From the NCBI RefSeq assembly GCF_002788215.1, contig NZ_CP024845.1, forward strand, positions 2,542,001 through 2,606,000: a stretch of 64,000 nt of DNA, read 5' to 3'. The position numbers and the translations under genes are program-made. The notes below the pieces were generated by a model that saw nothing but the letters and a program-made list of their open reading frames with translations, was not told where the DNA came from and ran no database searches. Positions within the stretch are counted from its first letter, which is position 1; each line of letters starts with the position of its first letter. This document shows, one piece after another, positions 37,073 through 52,376 of the stretch. Origin of the DNA: Halohasta litchfieldiae (GTDB lineage: Archaea; Halobacteriota; Halobacteria; Halobacteriales; Haloferacaceae).

Positions 37073-37840
37073 TCAGTTTTCGGACTCTCGGAGCGTGTTC
37101 TGGATCTGGGTTGCCGAACTGATGACAAGTCCGGGAAGGTCTTGCTGAAATCGTTTGCCCGAGAGACTCTCCGTGTCAGTTAGCACATAGATTGCGCCTC
37201 GAACGGAGCCATCGGGAGCTTCAACGGCTGCCGCGATCCCTCGCATATCGGGATACCACTCCTCGCGGTCGACTGCGAGACCACGTGCGGTGACGGTTTG
37301 TAGCTCGGCATCCAGTTCTGCCCGGCTCGAATAGGACTGTTCGGTTCCGGCGTCGAACGCGTGGTCCGCAAGCAGGTCCTCACGGCGGGCCTCCGGCAGC
37401 GCCGCGAGAATCGCCTTCCCGGCGGCTGTGTGGAGCGGCAACTGGTCGCCAGCACCGACTCGCGGTGTCCCGGTGTTCGGACCGAGGCGATGATGGAGAC
37501 AGATGACGCTGTCGGCTTCAAGCACGACGATCCCGGCCGAACAGTTTGCGGCAGTCGACAGCTGTACGACCTCGTCGATCCCAGCAGTATAAATCGGGTA
37601 CTGCTGGCGTGCATATGATCCAATGTGCAGGAACCGAAGACTGACACGGTACTCGTGGTCGTCTTTGACGACGAAGCCGAGGCCGGTCAGCGTCTCCAGA
37701 TGGTTGTGGACCGAGCTTTTCGACCGACCGAGCGCCTCGGCAACCGCAGTGACACCACCGCCATCGAGGTCGATGAGCGTCTCGAGTATCCGAACACTCG
37801 TCTGTGTCGCCGCCACCGGGAGATCTGAGCCGTCTACCAT
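37073..37840 (-). CDS. IclR-family transcriptional regulator (sugar-acid cluster 1)
   Basis: A 255-residue IclR regulator: winged helix with TSVRILETLIDLDGGGVTAV, AEALGRSKSSVHNHLETLTG and DHEYRVSLRFLHIG. The effector domain has NCSAGIVVLEADSVICLHHR, LPLHTAAGKAILAALPE and the common RGLAVDREEWYPDMRGIAAA. ATG 37840 (MVDGSDLP) is preferred over 37864. The dehydratase gene lies directly upstream on the same strand (66 bases), so it is likely co-transcribed with it and regulates the cluster. Confidence 0.92.
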   Translation of the reverse strand: MVDGSDLPVAATQTSVRILETLIDLDGGGVTAVAEALGRSKSSVHNHLETLTGLGFVVKDDHEYRVSLRFLHIGSYARQQYPIYTAGIDEVVQLSTAANCSAGIVVLEADSVICLHHRLGPNTGTPRVGAGDQLPLHTAAGKAILAALPEARREDLLADHAFDAGTEQSYSSRAELDAELQTVTARGLAVDREEWYPDMRGIAAAVEAPDGSVRGAIYVLTDTESLSGKRFQQDLPGLVISSATQIQNTLRESEN

Positions 37841-37906
37841 ACAAAGAGGTCCCGACAACTGCATATAAATTTGTTCACTAATAGCGAATCAGGAGCTATC
37901 GAGAGC

Positions 37907-39058
37907 CTACCACTCGGCGATACTCCCGTCGTCGTGGTACCAGATCGGGTTCTGCCAGTTGATTTGGGACTGGGCCTGCTCCCGGACAACTGCTTCGTCG
38001 ACTTCGATTCCCAGACCGGGGCCCTCCGGGGGAGTGACGTAGCCATCGGCGAACTCGAAAACCCCAGGTTCGTCGAGATAGTCCAGTAGCTCGTTGTCGG
38101 CTGGCTGGTCGATATCGAGGCTCTGGGCCTGAACGATGCTGTTCGGTGTCACCATATCCAGTTGGATACAGGCTGCAAAGGAGATCGGTCCGAGCGGACA
38201 GTGCAGTGACAGCAGGATATCAGCACTCTCGGCACTGCTCGCGATCTTCCGGACCTCAGAGATGCCGCCCGCATGTGAGGGCGACGGCTGGATGATGTCG
38301 ACCACGCCGTCCTCGATCAGGGGTGCGAAATCCCACCGCGAGTAGAGCCGCTGGCCGATAGCCAGCGGAACCTTCGTGCTGGAGGCAATGTCACCGAGGG
38401 CGTCTGCGTGCTCCGGCAGCACGGGCTCCTCATAGAACATTGGATCGTACTGATCGAGTTCGGCGGCCACCCAGTCGGCCATCGCTTTCGTTACTCGGCC
38501 GCGGAAGTCGACGCCGATATCGATCTCGTCGCCAACTCGCTGTCGGACTGCTGCCAGTCGGTCACGGGCGTGGTGGACTGCCGCCGGTGAGTCGATCCGC
38601 CGGAACTGCGAGACCGCCGAGAGCTTCAGCGTTCGGTAGCCGTTGTCGACCGCGGCTTCGGCCGCGTCGGCGATCTCTTCTGGCGTGTCGCCGCCGATCC
38701 ACTGATAGACCCGAATCCGGTCGCGGGCCCGCCCGCCGAGCAGTTCGTACACCGGCGCGTCGTACCGTTTGCCCTTGATATCCCAGAGTGCCTGATCGAT
38801 GCCGCCGATTGCGCTCATCAAAACCGGCCCGCCACGGAAATGTCGCCCCCGGTACATCGCCTGCCAGTGGCGTTCGATCTCCATGGGGTTGTTGCCGATT
38901 AGATAGTTGTCGAGGATCTCCTCGACAGCAGCGCGAGTGGTCTTGGCATGGCCCTCAACGATGGGTTCGCCCCAGCCGCAGAGTCCCGTGTCTGTCTCCA
39001 GTTTGAGAAACAGCCACCGTGGGGGCACGGCAAACAGTTCGTAGCCTGTGATTTCCAT
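37907..39058 (-). CDS. Galactonate dehydratase-like enolase-superfamily enzyme, copy 1
   Basis: A 383-residue mandelate racemase/muconate lactonizing enzyme family dehydratase closest in pattern to D-galactonate dehydratase (DgoD). Seen: LKLETDTGLCGWGEPIVEGH, the substrate-loop RHFRGGPVLMSAIGGIDQAL, metal ligands in GVDFRGRV, MFYEEPVLPE and VPLAIGQRLYSRWDF, then IIQPSPSHAGGISE with the catalytic His, and LHCPLGPISFAACIQ. The enzyme would dehydrate an aldonic acid to a 2-keto-3-deoxy acid. A paralogue lies at 49124. The true sugar acid is not readable from sequence. Confidence 0.88.
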   Translation of the reverse strand: MEITGYELFAVPPRWLFLKLETDTGLCGWGEPIVEGHAKTTRAAVEEILDNYLIGNNPMEIERHWQAMYRGRHFRGGPVLMSAIGGIDQALWDIKGKRYDAPVYELLGGRARDRIRVYQWIGGDTPEEIADAAEAAVDNGYRTLKLSAVSQFRRIDSPAAVHHARDRLAAVRQRVGDEIDIGVDFRGRVTKAMADWVAAELDQYDPMFYEEPVLPEHADALGDIASSTKVPLAIGQRLYSRWDFAPLIEDGVVDIIQPSPSHAGGISEVRKIASSAESADILLSLHCPLGPISFAACIQLDMVTPNSIVQAQSLDIDQPADNELLDYLDEPGVFEFADGYVTPPEGPGLGIEVDEAVVREQAQSQINWQNPIWYHDDGSIAEW

Positions 39059-39159: not shown

Positions 39160-39327
39160 GTCAGGTGAGGCCTACAGGGATCCGTCAAGTGAGGCCTACA
39201 GGGATCCGTCAAGTGAGGCCTACAGGGATCCGTCAAGTGAGGCCTACAGGGATCCGTCAAGTGAGACCTACAGGGATCCGTCAAGTGAGACCTACAGGGA
39301 TCCGTCAAGTGAGGCCTACAGGGGTTC
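39160..39327. repeat. Seven tandem copies of a 24-base unit
   Basis: The unit gtcaagtgaggcctacaggg plus atcc repeats seven times without gaps. The first copy has gtcagg and the last ends gggttc. Copies 5 and 6 have an a in place of a g (gtgagacc). It lies in the 325-base gap between the dehydratase start and the 3' end of the kinase gene. The unit is a multiple of three and would read EAYRDPSS, but no gene uses it convincingly. Confidence 0.93.
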
Positions 39328-39383: not shown

Positions 39384-40901
39384 CTATTTGTCGCGGAGGC
39401 GGTTGAGCGTCTCGACGCGGTCGTCCCAGACATCGAACATCGCCTGATAGGCGTCGTGGTAGAACTCGTACCACTCGTCGTATTTGGGTACTTTCTCCGG
39501 GTCAGGTTCGAACCGATCCGTGGTCCGAACGGTCCGGTCGACCGCCGCTTCGAGGTCGTCGTACTCGCCGAGGGCGACGCCGGTCAGCAGAGCCGCACCT
39601 TTCGCACCGAGTTCGTCGCCCTCCGGGAGGACAATGGGCGCGTCAAGGCAATCGGAGAACATCTGACACCAAAAGTCGGAGCGGGAGCCGCCGCCAGCGA
39701 TCATGATCCGGTCGGACTCTACTTGGATGTGTTCGAACGAATCACGCATCGCCAAGGCGACGCCCTCGTAGATCGCCCGCATCATGTGTTTCTGGCCGTG
39801 TTCCGGCGACAGCCCGATGAACTGGGCGCGGGCACTCGTCTTGAGGAACGGGTTTCGCTCTCCCGAGGAGCTGAGATACGGATGGTACAGCAGTCCCTCG
39901 GAGCCGACCGGGAGCTCCTCAATCTCGCTCTCGACGTCAGCGAACTCCCGGTTGTTGGCGATGTTCTCGTAGGACCAGTCGATGTTGGGTGTGCCCGCCA
40001 TCGATGCCATCGACCGGAGATAAAACTCTTCGTCGACCGCGAGCGTAAAGCCCCGACCCAGTAGCTCTTCGGGTGGCTCGGTCAGCACGGTCTGGTTCAG
40101 CGAGGTCGTCCCCACAATGGAGGAACTCTCGCCGGGCTGGACCGCGCCGCTGCCGATGGCGTTGGCCGGGATGTCGAAGACGCCCGAAATCACGGGGGTC
40201 CCCTCGGGGAGCCCGGTCTCGACTGCGGCATCGCCAGTCACATCGCCGATGATCTCGGTCGGCGGCGCGAGCCGCGGCAGCAGGTCGTCGACACCATCGA
40301 AGTCGATCAACTCTTGCACCTCCTCGGAGTACTCCCGCGTTTCGATGTCGAGAAACGGCAACGTCGCGTCGCTATAGTCCATCGTTCGCTCGCCGGTGAG
40401 TTTGAACTTTAGCCAGTCCTTGCAGTAAAAGACCGTCTCGGCTTCCTCAAGGGTTTCGGGCTCGTTTTCGACCAGCCACTGCATGATCGGCAGGGTCACA
40501 CCGGGGAAGATGTCGGTGCCGGTGGCCTCCCGGATCACGTCGGCCTTCCCGTTGTCGACCCAGTCGTCGACGATTTCGGAGGCGCGACCGTCCGACCAGA
40601 GGATTGCATCCCGAACTGGATCGCCCTCCTCGTCGATGAGCCAACAGCCGTCACCTTGGCCGGTGATCCCGATGCCGAGGATCTCGTGGTCGTCCTCGAT
40701 ATCCTCGACGACCTCGCTGATGACGGTGGCCGTCTTCTTCCAGTTGGTGGTCATGTTCTGTACTTGCCACCCGGACTGGGGCGTTTCCACTGGGTTTTCG
40801 ATTGTTGCGATCTCGATCTGCTCGCCATCGAGATTGAATGCTGCGGCTTTCAGGTTAGAGGTGCCTGCGTCGACACCGATGAGTACTCGGCTCATGCGCA
40901 A
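39384..40901 (-). CDS. FGGY-family carbohydrate kinase
   Basis: A 505-residue FGGY kinase (glycerol/xylulo/fuculokinase superfamily). Seen: the phosphate-1 loop LIGVDAGTSNLKAAAFNLDG, the GIGITGQGDGCWLIDEEGD segment with the family catalytic Asp later in VISGVFDIPANAIGSGAV, the ATP-binding GTTSLNQTV and IMIAGGGSRSDFWCQMFSD, and GAKGAALLTGVALGEY. Specificity cannot be fixed. In this cluster phosphorylation of a ketose or a ketose-like acid before class II aldol cleavage is the natural guess. Confidence 0.9.
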   Translation of the reverse strand: MRMSRVLIGVDAGTSNLKAAAFNLDGEQIEIATIENPVETPQSGWQVQNMTTNWKKTATVISEVVEDIEDDHEILGIGITGQGDGCWLIDEEGDPVRDAILWSDGRASEIVDDWVDNGKADVIREATGTDIFPGVTLPIMQWLVENEPETLEEAETVFYCKDWLKFKLTGERTMDYSDATLPFLDIETREYSEEVQELIDFDGVDDLLPRLAPPTEIIGDVTGDAAVETGLPEGTPVISGVFDIPANAIGSGAVQPGESSSIVGTTSLNQTVLTEPPEELLGRGFTLAVDEEFYLRSMASMAGTPNIDWSYENIANNREFADVESEIEELPVGSEGLLYHPYLSSSGERNPFLKTSARAQFIGLSPEHGQKHMMRAIYEGVALAMRDSFEHIQVESDRIMIAGGGSRSDFWCQMFSDCLDAPIVLPEGDELGAKGAALLTGVALGEYDDLEAAVDRTVRTTDRFEPDPEKVPKYDEWYEFYHDAYQAMFDVWDDRVETLNRLRDK

Positions 40902-41070: not shown

Positions 41071-42414
41071 ATGACAGACCAATCTGCCCAGCGGGTAGTC
41101 AGTGAGTTTGGCCAACGAATGCTTGCGGACGGACTCACGAAAGGTACCGGCGGCAACGTGAGCGTCAAAACCGACGACGGTAACGTCGCGATCAGTCCTT
41201 CGGGAATGGCCTACGACGAGATCGAACCCGACGACGTCCCAATCGTCGACGTCGACGGCACCCAAATCTCGGGCGACCGGAAACCCTCCAGCGAGTTCCG
41301 GATGCACACCGACATCCTTCGGGAGCGCGAGGACGTCGGTGCGGTCGTCCACAACCACTCGCCGTACGCCAGCACCTTCGCCAGCATCGGTGAGGCGGTC
41401 GGCCCCTCCCACTACCTCATCGCCTTCATCGGCGACGAGATCCCGGTCGCACCGTACGAAACCTATGGGACTGCCGAACTCGCCGAAGTTGCCCTCGAAA
41501 CATTGGGCGACGAGTACAACGCCTGCCTCCTCGAAAACCACGGCGTGCTTGCGACGGGACCCACCGCGGAGGCGGCCTACGAAGTCGCGCTGATGGTCGA
41601 GTACTGTGCCCGCGTCCACTACTACGCACTCTCTATCGGCGTGCCAAGTTTGCTCGACGATGCGGAGATCGACACCTTGCTTGACCGGTTTGCGAACTAC
41701 GGACAGAGCCAGTCGACTGACGACGAGGGAGCCGAGCCGGATACCGGTGTGAGCGTGTCGACCGACCGACTCACCGACCTACAATCCAACCGCGAGGCCG
41801 TCAGCGAGTTCGGTCGAAAGATGCTCCACCAAGGCCTGACCGAGGGCACTGGCGGCAACATCAGCTCCCAGAACGGTGATCTCGTGGCGATCACCCCATC
41901 GGGGATGCCATACGACGAGATCACCGCCGAGGACGTCTCGGTCGTCGACCTCCATGGCGAGCACATCGCTGGCAAGCGCAAGCCATCCAGCGAGTTTCGG
42001 ATGCACACCGACATCCTCCGGGAGCGCGACGATGTCGGCGCAGTGGTCCACAACCACTCGCCGTACGCCAGCGCCTTCGCCAGTCTCAACGAACCCATCG
42101 AGGCCTCCCACTACCTGATTGCCTTCGCGGGCGATCAGATCCCGGTCGCACCCTACGAGACCTATGGGACGGCCGAACTCGCCGAAGTCGCCCTCGAAAC
42201 CCTCGGCGACGAGTACAACGCCTGCCTCCTCGAAAACCACGGCGTCCTCGCGACCGGCGAGACTGTCGACGAAGCCTTCGAGGTCGCGCTGATGGTCGAA
42301 TACTGCGCCCGCATCCACTATCAGGCCCGCAACATCGGCGAACCGAACCTCCTGCCCAATGAGGAGATCGACACGCTGCTCGACCGCTTCGCGGACTACG
42401 GGCAAGACCACTGA
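41071..42414 (+). CDS. Tandem-duplicated class II aldolase (L-fuculose-phosphate aldolase-like)
   Basis: A 447-residue protein made of two full class II aldolase/adducin domains in tandem. Domain 1 (about 1-200) has zinc ligands H94, H96 and H157 and catalytic-type E75 (KPSSE, VVHNHSPYAS, LENHG). Domain 2 (about 231-447) has H317, H319, H380 and E298. The linker (202-230) is Ser/Asp/Glu-rich. The halves are nearly identical over long stretches (YETYGTAELAEVALETLGDE and the next 15 residues). Family members are single-domain tetramers of about 215 residues, like the copy at 50422. Both sites appear intact. It should cleave a sugar 1-phosphate to DHAP and an aldehyde. Confidence 0.93.
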   Translation: MTDQSAQRVVSEFGQRMLADGLTKGTGGNVSVKTDDGNVAISPSGMAYDEIEPDDVPIVDVDGTQISGDRKPSSEFRMHTDILREREDVGAVVHNHSPYASTFASIGEAVGPSHYLIAFIGDEIPVAPYETYGTAELAEVALETLGDEYNACLLENHGVLATGPTAEAAYEVALMVEYCARVHYYALSIGVPSLLDDAEIDTLLDRFANYGQSQSTDDEGAEPDTGVSVSTDRLTDLQSNREAVSEFGRKMLHQGLTEGTGGNISSQNGDLVAITPSGMPYDEITAEDVSVVDLHGEHIAGKRKPSSEFRMHTDILRERDDVGAVVHNHSPYASAFASLNEPIEASHYLIAFAGDQIPVAPYETYGTAELAEVALETLGDEYNACLLENHGVLATGETVDEAFEVALMVEYCARIHYQARNIGEPNLLPNEEIDTLLDRFADYGQDH

Positions 42415-42548: not shown

Positions 42549-44249
42549 ATGTACATGACTCACTCAGTCGTCGTTATCGGCGGCGGAGCGACCGGTACGG
42601 GCACCGCCCGCGACCTTGCGATGCGGGGGTTCGACGTAACGCTCGTCGAGCGCGGGAACCTCACCGAGGGCACCACCGGTCGCACCCACGGCCACCTCCA
42701 CAGCGGGGGTCGCTACGCCGTCAGCGATCAGGAAAGCGCGGTCGACTGTATGGAAGAAAATAGGGTTCTCCACCGGATCGCCGGCCACTGTATCGAAGAC
42801 ACCGGTGGTCTCTTTGTCCAACTCGAAGGCGACTCCGACGAGTATTTCCAGCAGAAACTGGAGGGCTGTGCGGAGTGCGACATTCCGACCGAGGTTATTT
42901 CGGGTGAGGAAGCCCGCAGACAGGAGCCACACCTCACAAAACGTGTCAAGCGTGCCATCCGCGTGCCCGACGGAGCCATCGACCCTTTCCGTCTCTGTGT
43001 GGCCAACGCCGCCGACGCCGTCGACCACGGCGCACGGGTCGAAACCCACGCCGAAGTGGTCGACCTCGTCGTCGAAGACGGCCGGGTCACCGGCGTCGAA
43101 ATTGAGCGGCAGGGTCCGAACTACCTCGGGGAGGGCAGCGAGGGCCAGCGAGAGACCATCGCGGCCGACTACGTCCTCAGCGCGACCGGCGCGTGGGCGA
43201 GCCAGATCGCCGAAATGGCGGATGTCGACCTCGAAATGGCGATCTCGAAGGGCGCGATGGTCGTCACCAACGTCCGGCAGATCGACACCGTGATCAACCG
43301 CTGTCTGCCCAAGGGAGAGGGCGATACGATCATCCCGCACGAAACCACCGTCCTGCTCGGGGCGAACGACGACCCGGTCGACGATCCCGATGACTATCCC
43401 GAAGAACAGTGGGAGGTCGACCTGATGATCGACCTCGCAAGCGAGATGGTGCCGATCACCGCCGAGGCCCGCATGATCCGGGCCTACTGGGGCGTCAGAC
43501 CGCTGTACGACCCCGATCCCGAGTCGACCAAAGAATCCGGCGACGTAACCCGGAACTACTTCGTCCTCGATCACGCCGACCGCGACGGTATCGAGGGATT
43601 CAGCTCGATTGTTGGCGGCAAACTCACGACCTACCGGGAGATGGCCGAATCCGCGACTGACCACGTCTGTGAGGTGTTGGGTGTCGACGCCGAGTGTCGA
43701 ACCCACGAAGAACCACTCCCGGGAAGTAGCGATATCTCGGTGCTCGAAGACCAGATGGACGATTTCGGGCTTCGGTCACCGATTGCCCGCCGAAGCAAAC
43801 AGCGTCTCGGCGACCGTGCAGAGGAAGTCCTCGATACCGATGGACCGAACCCCACCGTTTGCGAGTGCGAAGCCGTCACCCGCGCGGAGATCCAGGACGC
43901 CATCGACGGCGTGGGCGCGGACCCCAACGGGATTCGGCTTCGGACCCGCGCCTCGATGGGTAACTGTCAGGGCGGGCTCTGTTCGCACCGGATCAGTGCG
44001 GAGATCTATCCGAAACACGACGCGGTCGACGCCCGCGACGCCCTCGACGAACTGTATCAAGAGCGCTGGAAAGGCCAGCGCCACACGCTGTGGGGTCGAC
44101 AACTCTCTCAAGCGATGCTCAATCATCTGTTACACGCAACGACGATGAACCACGACGCCGACCCCGCGGTCGGTGGCCCGAGCGTCGACTACGACGCCTT
44201 CGACAGTGGTCGCACCGAACCGATCAGGGAGGAGAGCCATGGCCATTGA
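42549..44249 (+). CDS. glpA: Anaerobic-type glycerol-3-phosphate dehydrogenase subunit A
   Basis: A 566-residue GlpA-type FAD protein, oxidising glycerol 3-phosphate to DHAP. Seen: the N-terminal dinucleotide fold [75 protein letters not shown], and a C-terminal BFD-like [2Fe-2S] domain with [15 protein letters not shown] and [15 protein letters not shown] 42549 is followed by a second ATG at 42555; either is possible. The end overlaps glpB by 11 bases. Confidence 0.93.
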
Positions 44250-45612
44250 AAGCGAGGTGCTGGTCGTCGGTGGTGGCCTCGCCGGGATCACGAGCGCGAT
44301 TGCGGCCGCCCGCGAGGGAGCCGACGTACGGCTGGTCTGTCACAAGCGAACCTCGCTCCGACAGGCCTCGGGGCTGGTCGACGGACTGGGCTACGTGCCC
44401 GCCCGCAGCGAGCCACGCGAGGCCGACGCGATCACCCAACGACGGAAGGATTTCCGAACCGTGCGGTCGACTCGCGGCGAGTATACGGGGCCACTCGTCA
44501 GCCCGTTTGATGGTTTCGACGAGCTTCCGGAGTCCCACCCCTACTCGATTCTCGGCCCCGAGGCACTCCGCGATGGGCTGGCGCTGTTCGACGAGATGAC
44601 CGGCGACATGTATCTCGGAGACCACACCGAGCGAAACGCGCTCGTTCCGACCTTCGGCGGGACGATCAAACCCACTGCCCGCTATCCCCGCGCGGTCGAA
44701 GCCGGGCTGGCCAGCGATAGTCGACCGATGGCTATCGTTGGCTTTCGCTCGCTCACTGATTTCGACGCCGGGATGGTTGCCGACAGCCTCGAACGGGCCG
44801 ACGTTCCTTTCGAGGTGACTGGCGCTGAGATCGCCTTCGCTGAGTCGTTCCCCGCCGACGCCAAGGTAACTCGACTCGCCAAGGCTCTGGATCACGACGA
44901 GCGGATCGATGGGATACCGGCTCGACAGGCACTCGTTGAGGCCGTCGAGCCGCATATCGGTGATGCCGAGCGCGTCGGCTTTCCCGCGCTGCTCGGCGAC
45001 GATCACACCGCCGAGGTGCGGGCTGATCTCGGCGACCGATTGGGCGTCGACGTCTTTGAGATCCCGATGGGACCGCCGAGCCTGCTCGGACTCCGGCTCG
45101 AAGATCAACTGTACGATGCACTCGACGCCGAAGGCGTCCGGTTCGTCACGGGTAACCCAGTGGTCGGCTACGAGACGCGGGCGGATGATCCCAACTGCAT
45201 CGAGTCGGTCTGGGTCGACCACAAGGGACGAGAGGTACCCTACAGCGCCGAGCAGTTCGTGTTGGCGACCGGCGGCTTGGTCGGTAAGGGACTCGACTCC
45301 GACCGAAACCGGGTTCGTGAGCCGGTGTTCGACTGCCATATTCCACAGCCGGACAATCGGTATGACTGGTTCGTCGACGACGCCTTCGGCGATCACGCCT
45401 ACGCGCGGTTCGGCGTGCGACCCAACCCGTCGATGCAACCCCTTGATGCCAATGGCGAGCCGGAGTTTGCGAACCTCTATGCGGCTGGGTCGGTCGTCGG
45501 CGGTGCGGATATCGCCCGCGAGAAATCCGCTAGCGGTGTCTCGCTGGCTACCGCTGTCGTCGCCGGGCGGATGGCTGCCGATCCAAGCACAGAAACGCCG
45601 ACCTCTCAGTAG
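44239..45612 (+). CDS. glpB: Anaerobic-type glycerol-3-phosphate dehydrogenase subunit B
   Basis: A 457-residue GlpB-type flavoprotein. The N-terminus [18 protein letters not shown] begins a FAD/FMN fold; [54 protein letters not shown], and the C-terminal [19 protein letters not shown] and [20 protein letters not shown] follow the family. ATG 44239 lies inside glpA. GlpC, the iron-sulfur membrane anchor that normally follows glpB, is missing: the next gene is HbpS-like. Confidence 0.92.
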
Positions 45613-45720
45613 CGACGACAGCTGTCGACGGACGAGTATCGAGTCGACTGACAACTTTTATGTTCTGATTATAGAGAAAATACGAACACTTATACTACAT
45701 TGAAATAATCTACAACTTGC

Positions 45721-46167
45721 ATGGTAGAATCTATCCCGCTGGCGACAGCAACGCAACTCATCGAAGCAACCCAAGCGAAGGCTGAGGAGATCGACAACCC
45801 GATGGTTATCGCAGTAGCCAACAGCGAGGGCAACCTCATCGCTCAACATCGAATGGACGGCGCGTGGCTCGCGTCGGTCAACATCTCGAAAAACAAGGCC
45901 TACACCTCGGCCGCGCTGGATATGCCAACTCACGAACTCGCCGAACCGAGCGAGCCCGGCAACTCACTGTACGGTCTCGATACCCGCGACGAGGGCCGAA
46001 TGGTCGTCTTCGGCGGCGGCTATCCGCTCGAAGCCGACGGTGAGATTGTCGGCACTATTGGGGTCTCCGGCGGCGCAGTCTCCCAAGATCAGGAAGTCGC
46101 CGAGGCTGGCGTCGACAAATGGAACCAGCTTGTCGAAGACGGTGCTGTCGACGTCCAACAGGACTGA
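45721..46167 (+). CDS. GlcG/HbpS family (DUF336) heme-binding-like protein
   Basis: A 148-residue GlcG/HbpS-fold protein. Motifs are IPLATATQLIEATQAKAEEI, IAVANSEGNLIAQHRMDGA, NISKNKAYTSAALDM, and VVFGGGYPLEADGEIVGTIG. The family binds heme or cobalamin-related ligands or modulates glycolate, propanediol and sensor systems. It follows glpAB by 108 bases and has its own AT-rich upstream box. Its role with glycerol-phosphate oxidation is unknown. Confidence 0.88.
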   Translation: MVESIPLATATQLIEATQAKAEEIDNPMVIAVANSEGNLIAQHRMDGAWLASVNISKNKAYTSAALDMPTHELAEPSEPGNSLYGLDTRDEGRMVVFGGGYPLEADGEIVGTIGVSGGAVSQDQEVAEAGVDKWNQLVEDGAVDVQQD

Positions 46168-46247: not shown

Positions 46248-46305
46248 AAAGTGCCCGGTTCAGGTCTGCGCCCGGTTTAGCACAGTGCCCGGTATAGCGC
46301 ACGAC

Positions 46306-46530: not shown

Positions 46531-46699
46531 CTACAGCTTTGAGCCGGGTATAAATAAATATTTTGCACATGCAAAATAGTGTAAATTAACCCCATGAACG
46601 ATCATCCACGACACCGAAGGCGCAGTCGACAGCCAGCATGCCGACCAACGAGGCTGAGACAGGCGGTAGGTTTAGGCAACGGGCCGAGAATGTAGGTGT

Positions 46700-47413
46700 A
46701 TGGTATCCGTTACCGTCTGGAACGAGTATCTCGAAGAGCGAACGAACGACGAGGTTGCATCTGTGTATCCGGATGGGATTCACGAGACTCTTGCATCTGG
46801 ACTCCGCGAGCGCGGCCACGACGTGCGGACAGCGACCCTCGACGAACCGGACCACGGACTGACAGAGGAGGTTCTCGACGACACCGATGTTCTGGTCTGG
46901 TGGGAACACCGCGCCCACGAGGACGTCGACGACGAAATCGTTGAACGCGTCTGCGACCGTATCTACGACGGAATGGGGTTCGTCCCGCTTCACTCGGCGC
47001 ATTTCTCGAAGGTTTTCAAGCGACTGATGGGGACGCCCTGCTCGTTGACTTACCGCGAATCCAGAGAGCGCGAGCGAGTGTGGACCGTCGACCCGAGCCA
47101 TCCGATTACGGCGGGGCTTGAGGAGTCGTTCGTGATCCCCGAAACCGAGATGTACGGCGAGCCGTTCTCCGTTCCCGAACCCGACCAACTCGTGTTTGTC
47201 TCGTGGTTTGAGGGTGGTGAAGTGTTCCGGTCGGGTTGCTGTTACCAGCGCGGCACTGGTCGGATCTTCTACTTCCGACCGGGCCACGAGACGTATCCGG
47301 TCTACCACGAACCCGTGGTGCTCGATGTGATCGACAACGCTGTCCGCTGGGCAGTCCCACAGACGGACCGAACTGTCTCGAACGACAACGTGGCAGTCGA
47401 CTCTCTCGAGTAG
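46700..47413 (+). CDS. ThuA-family protein
   Basis: A 237-residue ThuA (trehalose utilisation) family protein with a class I glutamine amidotransferase-like fold. Seen: [80 protein letters not shown] and the final [19 protein letters not shown]. It lies between two sugar-type gene clusters, so a role in processing or regulating sugar oxidation is plausible. Catalytic activity for the family is not settled. Confidence 0.9.
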
Positions 47414-47580
47414 CGTCACGTCTGACGGGTTGTTCGCAATAACCGAATGGATGTCTATTCGAGGATTCGATTCGTCACCAACAGACCTCTTTTGGATGGT
47501 CATCCACTAGAGATGATTCCGGATAGCGGGCCATCAATAGCATAACTAGGATTCTGAAACGTAGGTTACTGCGTTCTTCT

Positions 47581-48181: not shown

Positions 48182-48951
48182 CTACTCTTTCGTCGGTGGT
48201 TGCGCTGGATTTCCTAATCGGTTTTTCGCACTGATAAGAAGGCCAGGATTGTTTTGATGAAGTTGTTTTCCAGTCAACGACTCGCTATCTCCTGCAACAA
48301 AGAGTCCACCAATAAGTCGATCGTTCTTGCCCGTAATGGCTATACCGATAGCACGAACATTATCGTGAAATTCATTCTCCTCAAAGGCTACACGGTGATT
48401 TTTGATTGTTTCGAGCGTATCAATCAACTCTTCTCGATTTGTTATTGTCTTTTCGGTGAACAAGTCTGTGCCGTGTTGATCAAGAATTTGTTCCGTCTCC
48501 TTGCGTGGGATTTCTGCCAACATGGCTTTGCCAACAGCGGTTGCATGCAGAGGTATCTCTTCGCCTTCTTCAATTACAACCGAATCAAGGTCTTTTCCAG
48601 CCCGACTGTAGAGACAGTATCCGAGACCATGTTCTTCGACAACAAGTCCAGCATTGAGACCGGTAGAAGATGAGAGACGATCTACTTCGCTGCGAGCACA
48701 TTTGTATAGTTCCTTGCGTGAACGGAGACACGTTCCCAACTGAAAGAGCTGCATACTGACTCGCGACCCAGACTCGTCACGGACAACGTATCCGAGCTGT
48801 TCGAGTGTCTTCAAATGATTGTGTACGGAACTCTTGGCCATATCGAGATGTGATGATAGTTCGGAGACCCCAGCTCCGTCACGTTCGACAAGACCTTCGA
48901 GAACACGGAAACTGGTAGCCGTCGACTTAATGGGTGTATCAGAGTAGGCAT
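48182..48951 (-). pseudogene. IclR-family regulator (cluster 2) with no in-frame start codon
   Basis: An IclR protein whose winged helix (SFRVLEGLVERDGAGVSELS, then SSHLDMAKSSVHNHLKTL) is complete in reading frame, but the codons before it (AYSDTPIKSTAT) run back to a stop with no ATG, GTG or TTG. An ATG at 48951-48949 is one base out of frame and would fit if one base were restored after it. The rest of the protein (GLNAGLVVEEHGLGYCLYSR, LHATAVGKAMLAEIPRKE, LIGGLFVAGDSESLTGKQ) is intact. Options are a recent single-base deletion, a non-standard start (ATT), a short form from ATG 48841 lacking half of the DNA-binding domain, or a sequencing error. Confidence 0.7.
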
Positions 48952-49123
48952 ATCACTGTCAAAGGTAGCCCCCTAATTAACTCTTGTTCGGAGTGACTGA
49001 ACGACGATAGCCGCTCAAAGAATCCGATCACGGATAACTCGATAGGGATTGAGTGGAACTGGCAGGGAGTCAGACCAACTCACGTTTAAAAGCTGTTCAC
49101 TGTTTCCGAACGAGAGACTCCTC

Positions 49124-50275
49124 TCACCATTCAGCAACGCTCCCGTCATTATGGTACCAGACTGGATTCTCCCAATCGAGTGTAGGCTCTTGTCGATTTG
49201 TAACGTACTCCTCATCGATTTCAATACCGAGACCCGGTGCGTCGGGGGGACGAATGAACCCATCACTGTACTGGAAGACATCTTGATCCTTGAGATAAGC
49301 CAAATGTTCGTTGTTCTCTGGGGCATGAATCTCGTGATACTGTGCTTGGAGGATGGCGTTGGGGATAACAGTATCAAGCTGGACGCACGCTGCAAGGGCA
49401 ATCGGCCCCACTGGGCAGTGCGGTACCAATGCCACGTCCTGGGTTTCGGCGTGGGCTGCAATCTTTCGGACTTCGCTGATACCGCCAGCGTGTGACGGGT
49501 TTGGTTGAATAACGTCGACGAGGCCTTCCGAGAGGATTTCCTCGAAATCCCAGCGTGAATAGAGTCGTTCACCCGATGCGAGTGGCGTACGAGTGTGAGG
49601 ACGCACTTCTGAGAGCAGTTCGATATTGTCTGGGAGGACAGGTTCTTCGTAGAACATTGCACCGTACTCGTCGAGTTCCGCTGCCAGCCATCGGACCATC
49701 GCTTTGGAAACTCGACCACGGAAGTCGACACCAAGATCGATATCCTCGCCAATGACATCACGAACAGCCCCGACACGGCGTTTGGCTTCCATGATGGTAG
49801 ACGGAGAATCAAGTCTTCGCAGAGACGACACAGCAGCCATTTTGAGTGCCCTGTATCCGTGGTCGACTGCTATCTGTGCTGCTGCGGCGACTTCTTCGGG
49901 TGTGTCGCCACCCACCCATTGGTAAACCGGAATTCTGTCCCGAGCACGTCCGCCGAGCAGTTCGTAGACTGGCGCATCGTACTGCTTGCCTTTGATATCC
50001 CACAGGGCCTGATCGATACCGGCAATAGCGCTCATAAGAATGGGGCCGCCCCGGACGTGGCGAGCACGATACATGGCCTGCCAGTGACGTTCGATTTCGG
50101 TGGCATCTTGACCGACAAGATAGTTATCGAGAATCTCTCTGACGGCACTCATCGTGGTCTGGGCATGGTTTTCTATAATCGGCTCACCCCAGCCTTCAGT
50201 ACCGTCCTCAGTGACGAGTTTTAAAAATACCCACCGTGGGGGGACCAAGTACAGTTCGTAATCTGTGATTTCCAT
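49124..50275 (-). CDS. Galactonate dehydratase-like enolase-superfamily enzyme, copy 2
   Basis: A 383-residue paralogue of the dehydratase at 37907, alike along its length: EITDYELYLVPPRWVFLKL, RHVRGGPILMSAIAGIDQAL, GVDFRGRVSKAMVRWLAAEL, MFYEEPVLPDNIELLSE, TPLASGERLYSRWDF, QPNPSHAGGISEVRKIA, and the C-terminal NPVWYHNDGSVAEW. ATG 50275 matches the start of copy 1; the frame opens at 50299. Codon use is less GC-rich than in copy 1, so the two have different histories. It belongs to cluster 2 with the aldolase and dehydrogenase upstream. Confidence 0.88.
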   Translation of the reverse strand: MEITDYELYLVPPRWVFLKLVTEDGTEGWGEPIIENHAQTTMSAVREILDNYLVGQDATEIERHWQAMYRARHVRGGPILMSAIAGIDQALWDIKGKQYDAPVYELLGGRARDRIPVYQWVGGDTPEEVAAAAQIAVDHGYRALKMAAVSSLRRLDSPSTIMEAKRRVGAVRDVIGEDIDLGVDFRGRVSKAMVRWLAAELDEYGAMFYEEPVLPDNIELLSEVRPHTRTPLASGERLYSRWDFEEILSEGLVDVIQPNPSHAGGISEVRKIAAHAETQDVALVPHCPVGPIALAACVQLDTVIPNAILQAQYHEIHAPENNEHLAYLKDQDVFQYSDGFIRPPDAPGLGIEIDEEYVTNRQEPTLDWENPVWYHNDGSVAEW

Positions 50276-50421
50276 ATCATCCGGTGTTTGTTCTATCATA
50301 TAGGTATTCCCTCTAATTTAGAGTCGAACAATAGGCCTCTGTGAATCAATAGAATTCGCCTCGTCGTGTCACGGAAAATCAGAGAAAGAACCGAGAGACA
50401 ACAAACCCGACGAGTCAGAAA

Positions 50422-51090
50422 TCAGCTGTTTTGGCCGTAGCCCTTGAACTTCTCTTGAAGATGGTCGACTTCCTCGTTAGGTAGCAGGTCCGGTTCGCCG
50501 ATGGACCGTGCCTGATAATGGATGCGGGCGCAGTACTCAACCATCTCGGCCGTCTCTAGGGCGTCCGAAAGCGAGTCACCAAGCGCGAGGACACCGTGGT
50601 TTGCAAGCAGGCAGGCGTTATACTCGTCGCCAAGTGCTTCGACTGCTCGCTGACCGAGCGCTTCGGTCCCGTAGGTTTCGTAACCGGCGACGGGGATCTT
50701 GTCGCCGATAAAGGCGATGAGGTAATGGGAGGCCTCAACCGGTTCGTTGAGACTAGCGAACGTGCTGGCGTATGGTGAGTGGGTGTGGACCATCCCGCCG
50801 ACGTCGTCGCGGGCCTCGTAGACGAGTCGGTGCATCGTATCCTCGTTGGACGGCTTCTCGCCCTCGTGGACGACGTTGCCGTCGAGGTCGATGATCGGCA
50901 CCTCTTCGGGGTCGATCTCTGGATATGGCATCCCCGAGGGACTGATGGCGATGTTGCCCTCCGCGGTCCGGCTGCTGACGTTGCCGCCGGTGCTCTTTGT
51001 CAACCCCTTCTCGAGCATCTCTCGGCCGTAGGTACAGACGGTCTCTCTTGCGTCGCGGTTCGGTAGGTCGGGTTGGTTCTGTGAAGTCAT
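50422..51090 (-). CDS. Class II aldolase (L-fuculose-phosphate aldolase-like), single domain
   Basis: A 222-residue class II aldolase, the usual size. It has CTYGREMLEKGLTKSTGGNV, SPSGMPYPEIDPEEVPIIDL, the metal site GGMVHTHSPYASTFASL (His-x-His) with LLANHGVLALG, and EEVDHLQEKFKGYGQ. It resembles both halves of the tandem protein at 41071, and probably shares its reaction. The start codon lies eight bases after the stop of the dehydrogenase, so it is co-transcribed with it. Confidence 0.92.
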   Translation of the reverse strand: MTSQNQPDLPNRDARETVCTYGREMLEKGLTKSTGGNVSSRTAEGNIAISPSGMPYPEIDPEEVPIIDLDGNVVHEGEKPSNEDTMHRLVYEARDDVGGMVHTHSPYASTFASLNEPVEASHYLIAFIGDKIPVAGYETYGTEALGQRAVEALGDEYNACLLANHGVLALGDSLSDALETAEMVEYCARIHYQARSIGEPDLLPNEEVDHLQEKFKGYGQNS

Positions 51091-51098
51091 GGTGGATC

Positions 51099-52172
51099 TC
51101 AGTTGTCGGCTGTAAGTCCAAAGTCGTCGACAACGCTTTTGTCGGCAACGTGGGTCGGTTCACGACCGTTGAGCAACGCATCGATATCGTCGACGATCAT
51201 CTTCGAATGGCGGTCGACCACCTCGTTTGCGGCCCCGGCCAGATGCGGCGTTGTGACGACTCGGTCAAGGTCGAGCAGTGGGTGGTCATCGGGTAGCGGT
51301 TCCTTATCGTACACGTCAAGGGCGGCTCCTTGGAGTTCGTCGTTTTGCAGAGCCTTGACCAACGCGTCTTGGTCGATGAGAGCCCCGCGGGCCGTATTGA
51401 TGAAGAAGGCGCTGTCTTTCATCGCGGCGAACTCCTCGGTGCCGAACAGGCCTCGCGTGCTGTCGGTCACTGGGGCATGGACGGTAACGACGTCACTCTT
51501 TTCGAGTAGTTCGTCGAGATCTCCTTTCGTCACGTCGTGGTCAGCCATCTCGTCGGCGTCAATGTAGGGGTCATAGCCTAGCAGGTCCACGCCAAAGCCC
51601 TGAGCGCGGGCGGCGACCGCTTGCCCGATGGCGCCCATACCGACGATACCGACTGTCTTGCCCGTCAGTTCCGGCCCTTTCAGGTTTGCGAAGGGCGAGT
51701 CCTTCGCGACGCCCCAAGTCACGTCCTCGCGTTCACCGCCGCCGGCCGCGTCGGAGATGGGGTCGCCGGTATAGGTCCCCGTATGCAGGAGGTGGTGTGC
51801 GCGAGCAATCTGTCGACCGGCGGCCAAAATTAGCCCCCATGTGAAGTCGGCCACGCTGACCGCGTTGCGACCAGGGGCATAGAGAACGGGAATCCCCCGC
51901 TCGGTGGCCGCGGCGATATCGACGTTGGCATCCGGGCCGCCCCGAGCGCAAGCGATGATTTCCAAGTCCTCGGCCTGGGTGAGAACGTTTTCGGAGACGC
52001 CCTCGTAGCCGACGATGAGAATCTCCACGCCCTCAAGGTGGTCGATGAATTCCGATTCAGGGAGCCGGCTCTCTCGGTCCCCAATGGGGACATACTCTAC
52101 GTCAAAGCCGTAGTCGTCCTCCAGACGGGACAATGCCGCCGAGGACAGGTTCGCTGTGACAAGTATCTTCAT
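51099..52172 (-). CDS. D-2-hydroxyacid dehydrogenase (3-phosphoglycerate dehydrogenase-like)
   Basis: A 357-residue NAD-dependent D-2-hydroxyacid dehydrogenase. Seen: the N-terminal MKILVTANLSSAALSRLEDD, NVDIAAATERGIPVLYAPGR, the Rossmann GKTVGIVGMGAIGQAVAARA, and catalytic residues in INTARGALIDQDAL (Arg), DVYDKEPLPDDHPLLD (Glu) and VVTTPHLAGAANE (His). ATG 52172 is chosen; the frame opens at 52367 but the added part is not conserved. It is the first gene of the leftward cluster-2 operon and faces the truncated kinase. Confidence 0.92.
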   Translation of the reverse strand: MKILVTANLSSAALSRLEDDYGFDVEYVPIGDRESRLPESEFIDHLEGVEILIVGYEGVSENVLTQAEDLEIIACARGGPDANVDIAAATERGIPVLYAPGRNAVSVADFTWGLILAAGRQIARAHHLLHTGTYTGDPISDAAGGGEREDVTWGVAKDSPFANLKGPELTGKTVGIVGMGAIGQAVAARAQGFGVDLLGYDPYIDADEMADHDVTKGDLDELLEKSDVVTVHAPVTDSTRGLFGTEEFAAMKDSAFFINTARGALIDQDALVKALQNDELQGAALDVYDKEPLPDDHPLLDLDRVVTTPHLAGAANEVVDRHSKMIVDDIDALLNGREPTHVADKSVVDDFGLTADN

Positions 52173-52376
52173 GATTGATGATGACGGCCCGGTTGCGACG
52201 AAAGACCAGCGGGCCGTCGGACTGGCTTCCGCTGTGGAGGCGTGACCACTCCCGAGGGTCACGCGGCGCATATCCACATTGAAAAGTGCGCAAGTATTAT
52301 ATAAGAAGAATCGTTCACAAGTAAATAATTCTCCTACCCTTTCCTTTATAAGTAGATTATTACACAATTAATCATT

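Follow-up and report, generated by a model that had tools for sequence, protein, structure and literature searches.

An old, conserved fusion of two class II aldolase domains in Halohasta litchfieldiae, with probable local homogenisation of its halves

The window analysed here, a stretch of 64,000 nucleotides from Halohasta litchfieldiae (NZ_CP024845.1, positions 2,542,001 to 2,606,000; the genome is a single contig of 3,332,022 bases), carries an open reading frame in which the class II aldolase family PF00596 is matched in two stretches, with 367 bits against a gathering score of 22.2. The gene stands between an FGGY sugar kinase and the genes for two glycerol-3-phosphate dehydrogenase subunits, with the features of the region as follows:

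37073..37864, minus strand: IclR-family regulator (Pfam PF01614, PF09339)
37907..39058, minus strand: enolase-superfamily sugar-acid dehydratase (NF010624, galactonate dehydratase, 576 bits against a cut-off of 311)
39384..40901, minus strand: FGGY sugar kinase, divergent from the aldolase gene; below every NCBIfam cut-off, best match XylB
41071..42414, plus strand: two-domain class II (PF00596) aldolase gene, 447 aa, ORF bounds exact
41071..41709, plus strand: N-terminal aldolase half, residues 1-213, resembling the FucA and DrdA structures
41710..41769, plus strand: linker of ~20 residues, low model confidence
41770..42411, plus strand: C-terminal aldolase half, residues 234-447, placed by alignment and catalytic residues
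42549..44249, plus strand: GlpA, glycerol-3-phosphate dehydrogenase subunit A (TIGR03377, 689 bits against 553)
44173..45612, plus strand: GlpB, glycerol-3-phosphate dehydrogenase subunit B (NF003722, 687 bits against 349)
45721..46167, plus strand: HbpS-like (PF03928) small protein at the cluster end, kept in relatives
50422..51090, minus strand: single-domain class II aldolase paralogue, 63% identical to the C half, in a second cluster

The second cluster (48182-52367) is of like make-up, holding an IclR regulator, an enolase-superfamily dehydratase (NF010624, 555 bits), the single-domain aldolase and a 2-hydroxyacid dehydrogenase. GlpC is not found in the glp cluster of the window (42549-46167), unlike in Haloferax massiliensis (locus L067) and locus L070; a 72% identical GlpC copy lies elsewhere in the genome (G000:C1:2159971-2161218). 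Between the dehydratase and the kinase, 39160-39323 is occupied by a tandem repeat (24-nt unit, 6.8 copies, 97% matches) that is open as repeated octapeptides on the plus strand and is probably no gene, and a 17-nt unit repeated 2.9 times (75% matches) follows directly after the HbpS-like gene at 46250-46298. An open reading frame of 305 aa at 46586-47503 (minus strand) has no Pfam or NCBIfam match; its translation has counterparts next to this cluster in L067, L069, L071 and L077, with the frame unsure because a plus-strand frame was picked there in L067 and L069.

Both halves of the fused chain are intact as far as their sequences can tell. Equivalents of the E. coli FucA residues N29, S71, S72, E73, H92, H94, Y113, H155 and Y209 (numbering counted from the alignment) are present in both, as N29, S73, S74, E75, H94, H96, Y115, H157 and Y210 in the N half and N263, S306, S307, E308, H327, H329, Y348, H390 and Y443 in the C half, with the metal-binding His triad and the catalytic Glu in each. 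The alignment to FucA thus bears out the initial annotation, which had seen the Glu and three His in both halves, and the two PF00596 domains with their intact catalytic sets support its reading as two class II aldolases fused in tandem, both apparently active. All nine catalytic and phosphate-binding residues are also kept in the six single-domain relatives compared, and in every one of the 26 halves from the 13 fusion genomes described below. The last of these observations makes it improbable that only one half is catalytic and the other serves as a regulatory or structural pseudo-domain, an arrangement with which the divergence of the halves by position since before the split of the Halohasta and Haloferax genes would agree, and for which the adducin domain, the same fold without catalysis according to the accessible part of PMC12599920, offers a precedent.

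The names that family models give to the chain are a product of its two domains. The whole chain passes NF005302 (FucA, 474 bits against 264), NF053831 (Ru1P aldolase, 434 against 300), NF005123 (321 against 251), NF005984 (290 against 264) and TIGR03328 (169 against 137), with these scores arising from the sum of two sub-threshold domains, since neither half passes alone: in the same order, the N half scores 227, 213, 155, 138 and 86 bits and the C half 252, 230, 170, 157 and 89. A further FucA model, TIGR01086, gives 129 bits for the N half and 144 for the C half against 400. An identity as Ru1P aldolase was accordingly dropped, as none of the three aldolase domains in the whole genome lies above the 300 bits of NF053831. 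Curated per-protein cut-offs that are passed only by adding two such domains constitute an annotation trap.

An AlphaFold2 model of one chain, built from a 26-row alignment, has a pLDDT of 89 and a pTM of 0.86, suggesting a definite packing of the halves, and is poor only in the linker (pLDDT below 50 at residues 212-221 and 224-226) and at the C-terminal end. The nearest fold is that of DrdA (6btd; Z 32.2, rmsd 1.3 over 201 residues), with FucA also similar. In FucA, Y113 and Y209 are contributed by the neighbouring subunit. The pseudo-tetramer that had been proposed for this protein is plausible from the model.

Over 213 aligned codons the two halves share 72.8% protein and 74.8% DNA identity; they align in register with a 699-nt offset and reach 80% identity over 300 nt. 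Of the stretches that had been called nearly identical, 41485-41540 matches its partner at +699 in 52 of 56 bases (93%), and the longest exact run shared by the halves is 41 nt (41506-41546). In codons 136-160 the halves agree at every one of the 25 residues and use the same codon for 21 of them, where the codon usage of nine window genes predicts 11.4; for the whole gene the figures are 97 of 151 same-residue codons against 67.5. The near identity therefore stands locally, whereas the contrast that had been drawn with an old fusion does not, as outside this tract the halves have diverged as those of an old fusion should. The tract has two copies, between which within-genome identity is 91.4% (pairing rank 1 of 24, see below):

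41449..41553, plus strand: putative homogenised tract, N-half copy, alignment codons 131-165
42148..42252, plus strand: putative homogenised tract, C-half copy, alignment codons 131-165

A search for the fusion in relatives finds it in all four Halohasta genomes (89-100% identity in the genus search) and at least nine other genomes. The order, family and class searches, systematic within Halobacteria, give at least 5 of 392, at least 10 of 170 and at least 10 of 391 genomes respectively, with these sets overlapping and the counts being lower bounds that rest on four (order, class) or up to ten (family) candidates scored per genome, among hits that came with a locus. A pattern scan of named genomes adds two, in a Haloarculaceae MAG (L036) and Halomarina halobia (L038), giving 13 distinct fusions, among them those of Haloferax massiliensis (80%) and Halobellus rarus. 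That the two-domain gene is an assembly artefact of repeated sequence, the finding that was to have undone the initial annotation, can be dismissed with near certainty: three further Halohasta assemblies carry the fusion at 89-92% identity, it is found in Haloferax, Halobellus, Halomarina and others, and roughly one base in four differs between the halves, too many for a repeat to have been collapsed or expanded in error.

In a tree of 66 aldolase domains, the N halves of the four Halohasta genomes and Haloferax massiliensis form one clade (support 100/99), and their C halves form, together with that of L036, a separate one (89/98). Within Halohasta, DNA identity between N halves or between C halves of different genomes is 85-89%, compared with 74-79% between N and C halves. 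Amino-acid patterns agree by position rather than by species at 38 sites against 2 between the window and H. salina, and at 15 against 3 between the window and Haloferax. The fusion is therefore old, being common to the Halohasta and Haloferax massiliensis genes, and a recent duplication, as had also been suggested, is refuted as a within-genus event for these genes. A recent duplication of the whole gene, or a separate one in each lineage, would account for the dominance of species-wise patterns between distant lineages (18 against 1 between the window and Halomarina), but given the separate N and C clades and the position-wise patterns within Halohasta and Haloferax, we consider it very improbable.

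Fusions with a C half in the clade of Halohasta, Haloferax massiliensis and L036 are here termed type A, and seven others (G205, G352, Hb. rarus, G465, Halomarina, G196 and G423) type B. The C halves of type B fall in a different clade (98/92) that has single-domain genes within it. Forcing all C halves into one clade is 50 log units worse (p-AU 0.037), which is suggestive of two origins, the group having been defined only once the tree was known; a tree with all N halves in one clade is not rejected (p 0.39). Types A and B probably arose separately, although a single origin followed by a swap of the C half may also account for the pattern. In the tree, type A halves are not set off from single-domain genes as a group of their own, although such a grouping is not rejected (p 0.39), and the exact parent gene is therefore unsure.

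The gene order of relatives agrees with a fusion in place. Six loci with a single-domain aldolase near GlpA (L070-L075) all have the order dehydratase, FGGY kinase, aldolase, GlpA, with GlpB in four, IclR in five and HbpS in two (L070 and L071), some of these stretches stopping at a contig or fetched-sequence edge; in L070 and L071 a 2-hydroxyacid dehydrogenase precedes the aldolase. The fused gene occupies this single-domain slot in the window and in the Halohasta loci L069 and L077, and in Haloferax massiliensis (L067) it does so with no FGGY kinase intervening. The H. litorea locus (L068) has an additional single-domain copy and a further FGGY gene separating the fusion from GlpA. Fusions of type B stand elsewhere, five of the seven downstream of a 2-hydroxyacid dehydrogenase (L061, L062, L063, L066 and L038), with an intervening ORF of 391-396 aa in the four of these loci for which ORFs were listed; the one tested, in L063, is a sugar-ABC ATPase. 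A single-domain gene takes the type B slot in L079, and L064 has a rhamnulokinase-like kinase and an aldo-keto reductase beside the fusion.

Four tests, with outcomes pointing in both directions, bear on whether the halves have exchanged sequence since the fusion. Among variable sites, the longest run matching between the two halves of one genome has p <= 0.004 in 11 of the 13 genomes, the exceptions being G205 (p 0.71) and G352 (p 0.09). When halves are compared between genomes, 13 of 156 pairs have p < 0.01, comprising 11 of 16 same-clade pairs and 2 of 140 others; much of the run signal therefore predates the species splits, because same-clade pairs also score. The clearest conversion tract is found in Halomarina, whose halves (L038 6001-7317) share a run of 90 variable sites and have identical codons at 140 of 161 same-residue positions, compared with 92.9 expected from its own usage.

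Within Halohasta, quartets of the window with a second genome give species-wise to position-wise ratios in codons 131-165 of 6:1 for H. salina, 7:1 for H. litorea and 3:1 for B1-Br10, against cross-control values of 2, 1 and 3, the B1-Br10 comparison being not above its control and showing no tract excess. Outside these codons the position-wise to species-wise ratios are 74:4, 69:10 and 70:4. In the tract a genome's own halves are 89.3% identical compared with 85.8% over all pairings, the first rank of 24 and the best result attainable with four genomes; the ranks are 7 for codons 1-130, 15 for codons 166-218 and 4 for the whole gene. At the protein level, own-half pairing gives 68.5% against 64.3% across eight lineages, with 2 of 20,000 random pairings as good, and ranks first of 120 in the five lineages of type B alone, though coevolution of touching halves could add to this signal and is mixed in with conversion. 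The heaviest weight is placed on the protein-level and within-genus tests, because distant quartets are partly open to codon-usage bias.

Genome-specific substitutions form the fourth test. With the mean match to other genomes' halves as baseline, those of H. litorea match its own other half 8 times against 4.0 (N) and 11 against 4.7 (C), compared with 5 against 5.0 and 6 against 5.3 in H. salina, and 6 against 6.3 and 6 against 7.0 in B1-Br10. Those of the window (8 against 7.0 in N, 4 against 3.3 in C) show no excess of recent conversion in its own terminal lineage. A single-domain gene neighbouring the H. litorea fusion (L032) was considered as donor and dropped, since H. litorea-specific changes match it (5 of 25 in C, 6 of 21 in N) no more than do controls taken from the other three genomes.

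These patterns could also arise with no conversion at all, if the near-identical stretch is under strong constraint near the third metal-binding His and its synonymous codons are alike by codon bias. The full residue identity of codons 136-160 would fit such constraint, as would the good conservation of the segment in single-domain relatives and the lack of a sharing excess among window-specific changes. However, the excess of identical codons in this segment, the pairing ranks and the H. litorea-specific matches argue against it, and in codons 136-165 within-genome N-C identity (92%) exceeds that between N halves (84%) or C halves (86%) of different genomes, which constraint by itself would not predict; we regard an account of this kind as rather unlikely. 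Conversion between the halves over the history of the family is well supported, most strongly in H. litorea and Halomarina, and its mechanism is plausible because haloarchaea are polyploid with efficient gene conversion, as stated in the portion of PMC12186497 available. The idea that the halves are being homogenised thus holds for short tracts, best seen in H. litorea, Halomarina and the Halohasta stem, but not for the whole gene, and no recent excess is seen in the lineage of the window itself.

Taken together, the locus holds a real, old and conserved domain fusion with local homogenisation in a known enzyme family, and we consider it probable, with some reserve, that it encodes an old FucA-like, DHAP-releasing two-domain aldolase with short-tract gene conversion between its halves. 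As the fusion is shared by Halohasta and Haloferax massiliensis and stands in the single-domain slot, it most likely arose by tandem duplication of a single-domain aldolase and in-frame joining in an ancestor. Each chain would fold as two joined protomers, two chains forming the tetramer of the family, with every active site spanning the contact between two halves. The adjacent FGGY kinase may make a ketose 1-phosphate, which the fusion would cleave to DHAP and a short aldehyde, with DHAP entering the GlpAB/glycerol-phosphate pool. The best guess is a retro-aldol cleavage yielding DHAP and glycolaldehyde, lactaldehyde or acetaldehyde; the substrate is unreadable from homology, since the haloarchaeal Ru1P aldolase takes several aldehydes according to the part of PMC9700705 consulted. 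Since the fusion, short tracts would have been copied between the halves by gene conversion, which would keep them from complete divergence.

A more speculative extension, which we hold only tentatively, is that at least two joinings took place from different single-domain parents, with conversion keeping the halves matched, leaving an enzyme midway between homomer and heteromer with two kinds of active site across unlike boundaries. Single domains, fused alike halves and fused unlike halves form a natural series, in which one can ask how a ring-shaped homomer turns into a chain whose asymmetry is built in, and whether this is slowed by recombination between the halves.

Compared with known systems, FucA (E. 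coli 1fua; S. pneumoniae 4c24) shares the fold (Z 28-30) and all the metal and catalytic residues checked, and its DHAP-releasing chemistry is expected to be shared as well. However, FucA is a single-domain chain, the fusion halves individually fall below the FucA equivalog cut-offs, and the fusion cluster has a dehydratase and GlpAB, with no fucose isomerase among the neighbours scanned. The closest solved structure is DrdA, the 5-deoxyribulose-1-phosphate aldolase of Bacillus thuringiensis (6btd/6btg; 45-51% identity, Z 32), which is single-domain, unlike the fusion, and a tetramer in the crystal as given in the section of PMC6079011 available; none of its partner genes (methylthioribose-kinase-like, isomerase) is among the window neighbours scanned. 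The haloarchaeal Ru1P aldolase (NF053831) and the uncharacterised "FucA*" belong to the same family and the same organisms, with the accessible text of PMC9700705 placing FucA* genes in Halohasta, listing R15P isomerase and no FucA for H. litchfieldiae, and making no mention of a two-domain chain. The limited open-access literature consulted yielded no description of a class II aldolase with two domains in one chain. Long-lasting concerted evolution of prokaryotic paralogues, some of the homogenised ones forming homopolymers, is described in the available part of PMC6053082, where every copy is a gene of its own and all seven archaeal cases come from methanogens, whereas here the copies are the two halves of one reading frame.
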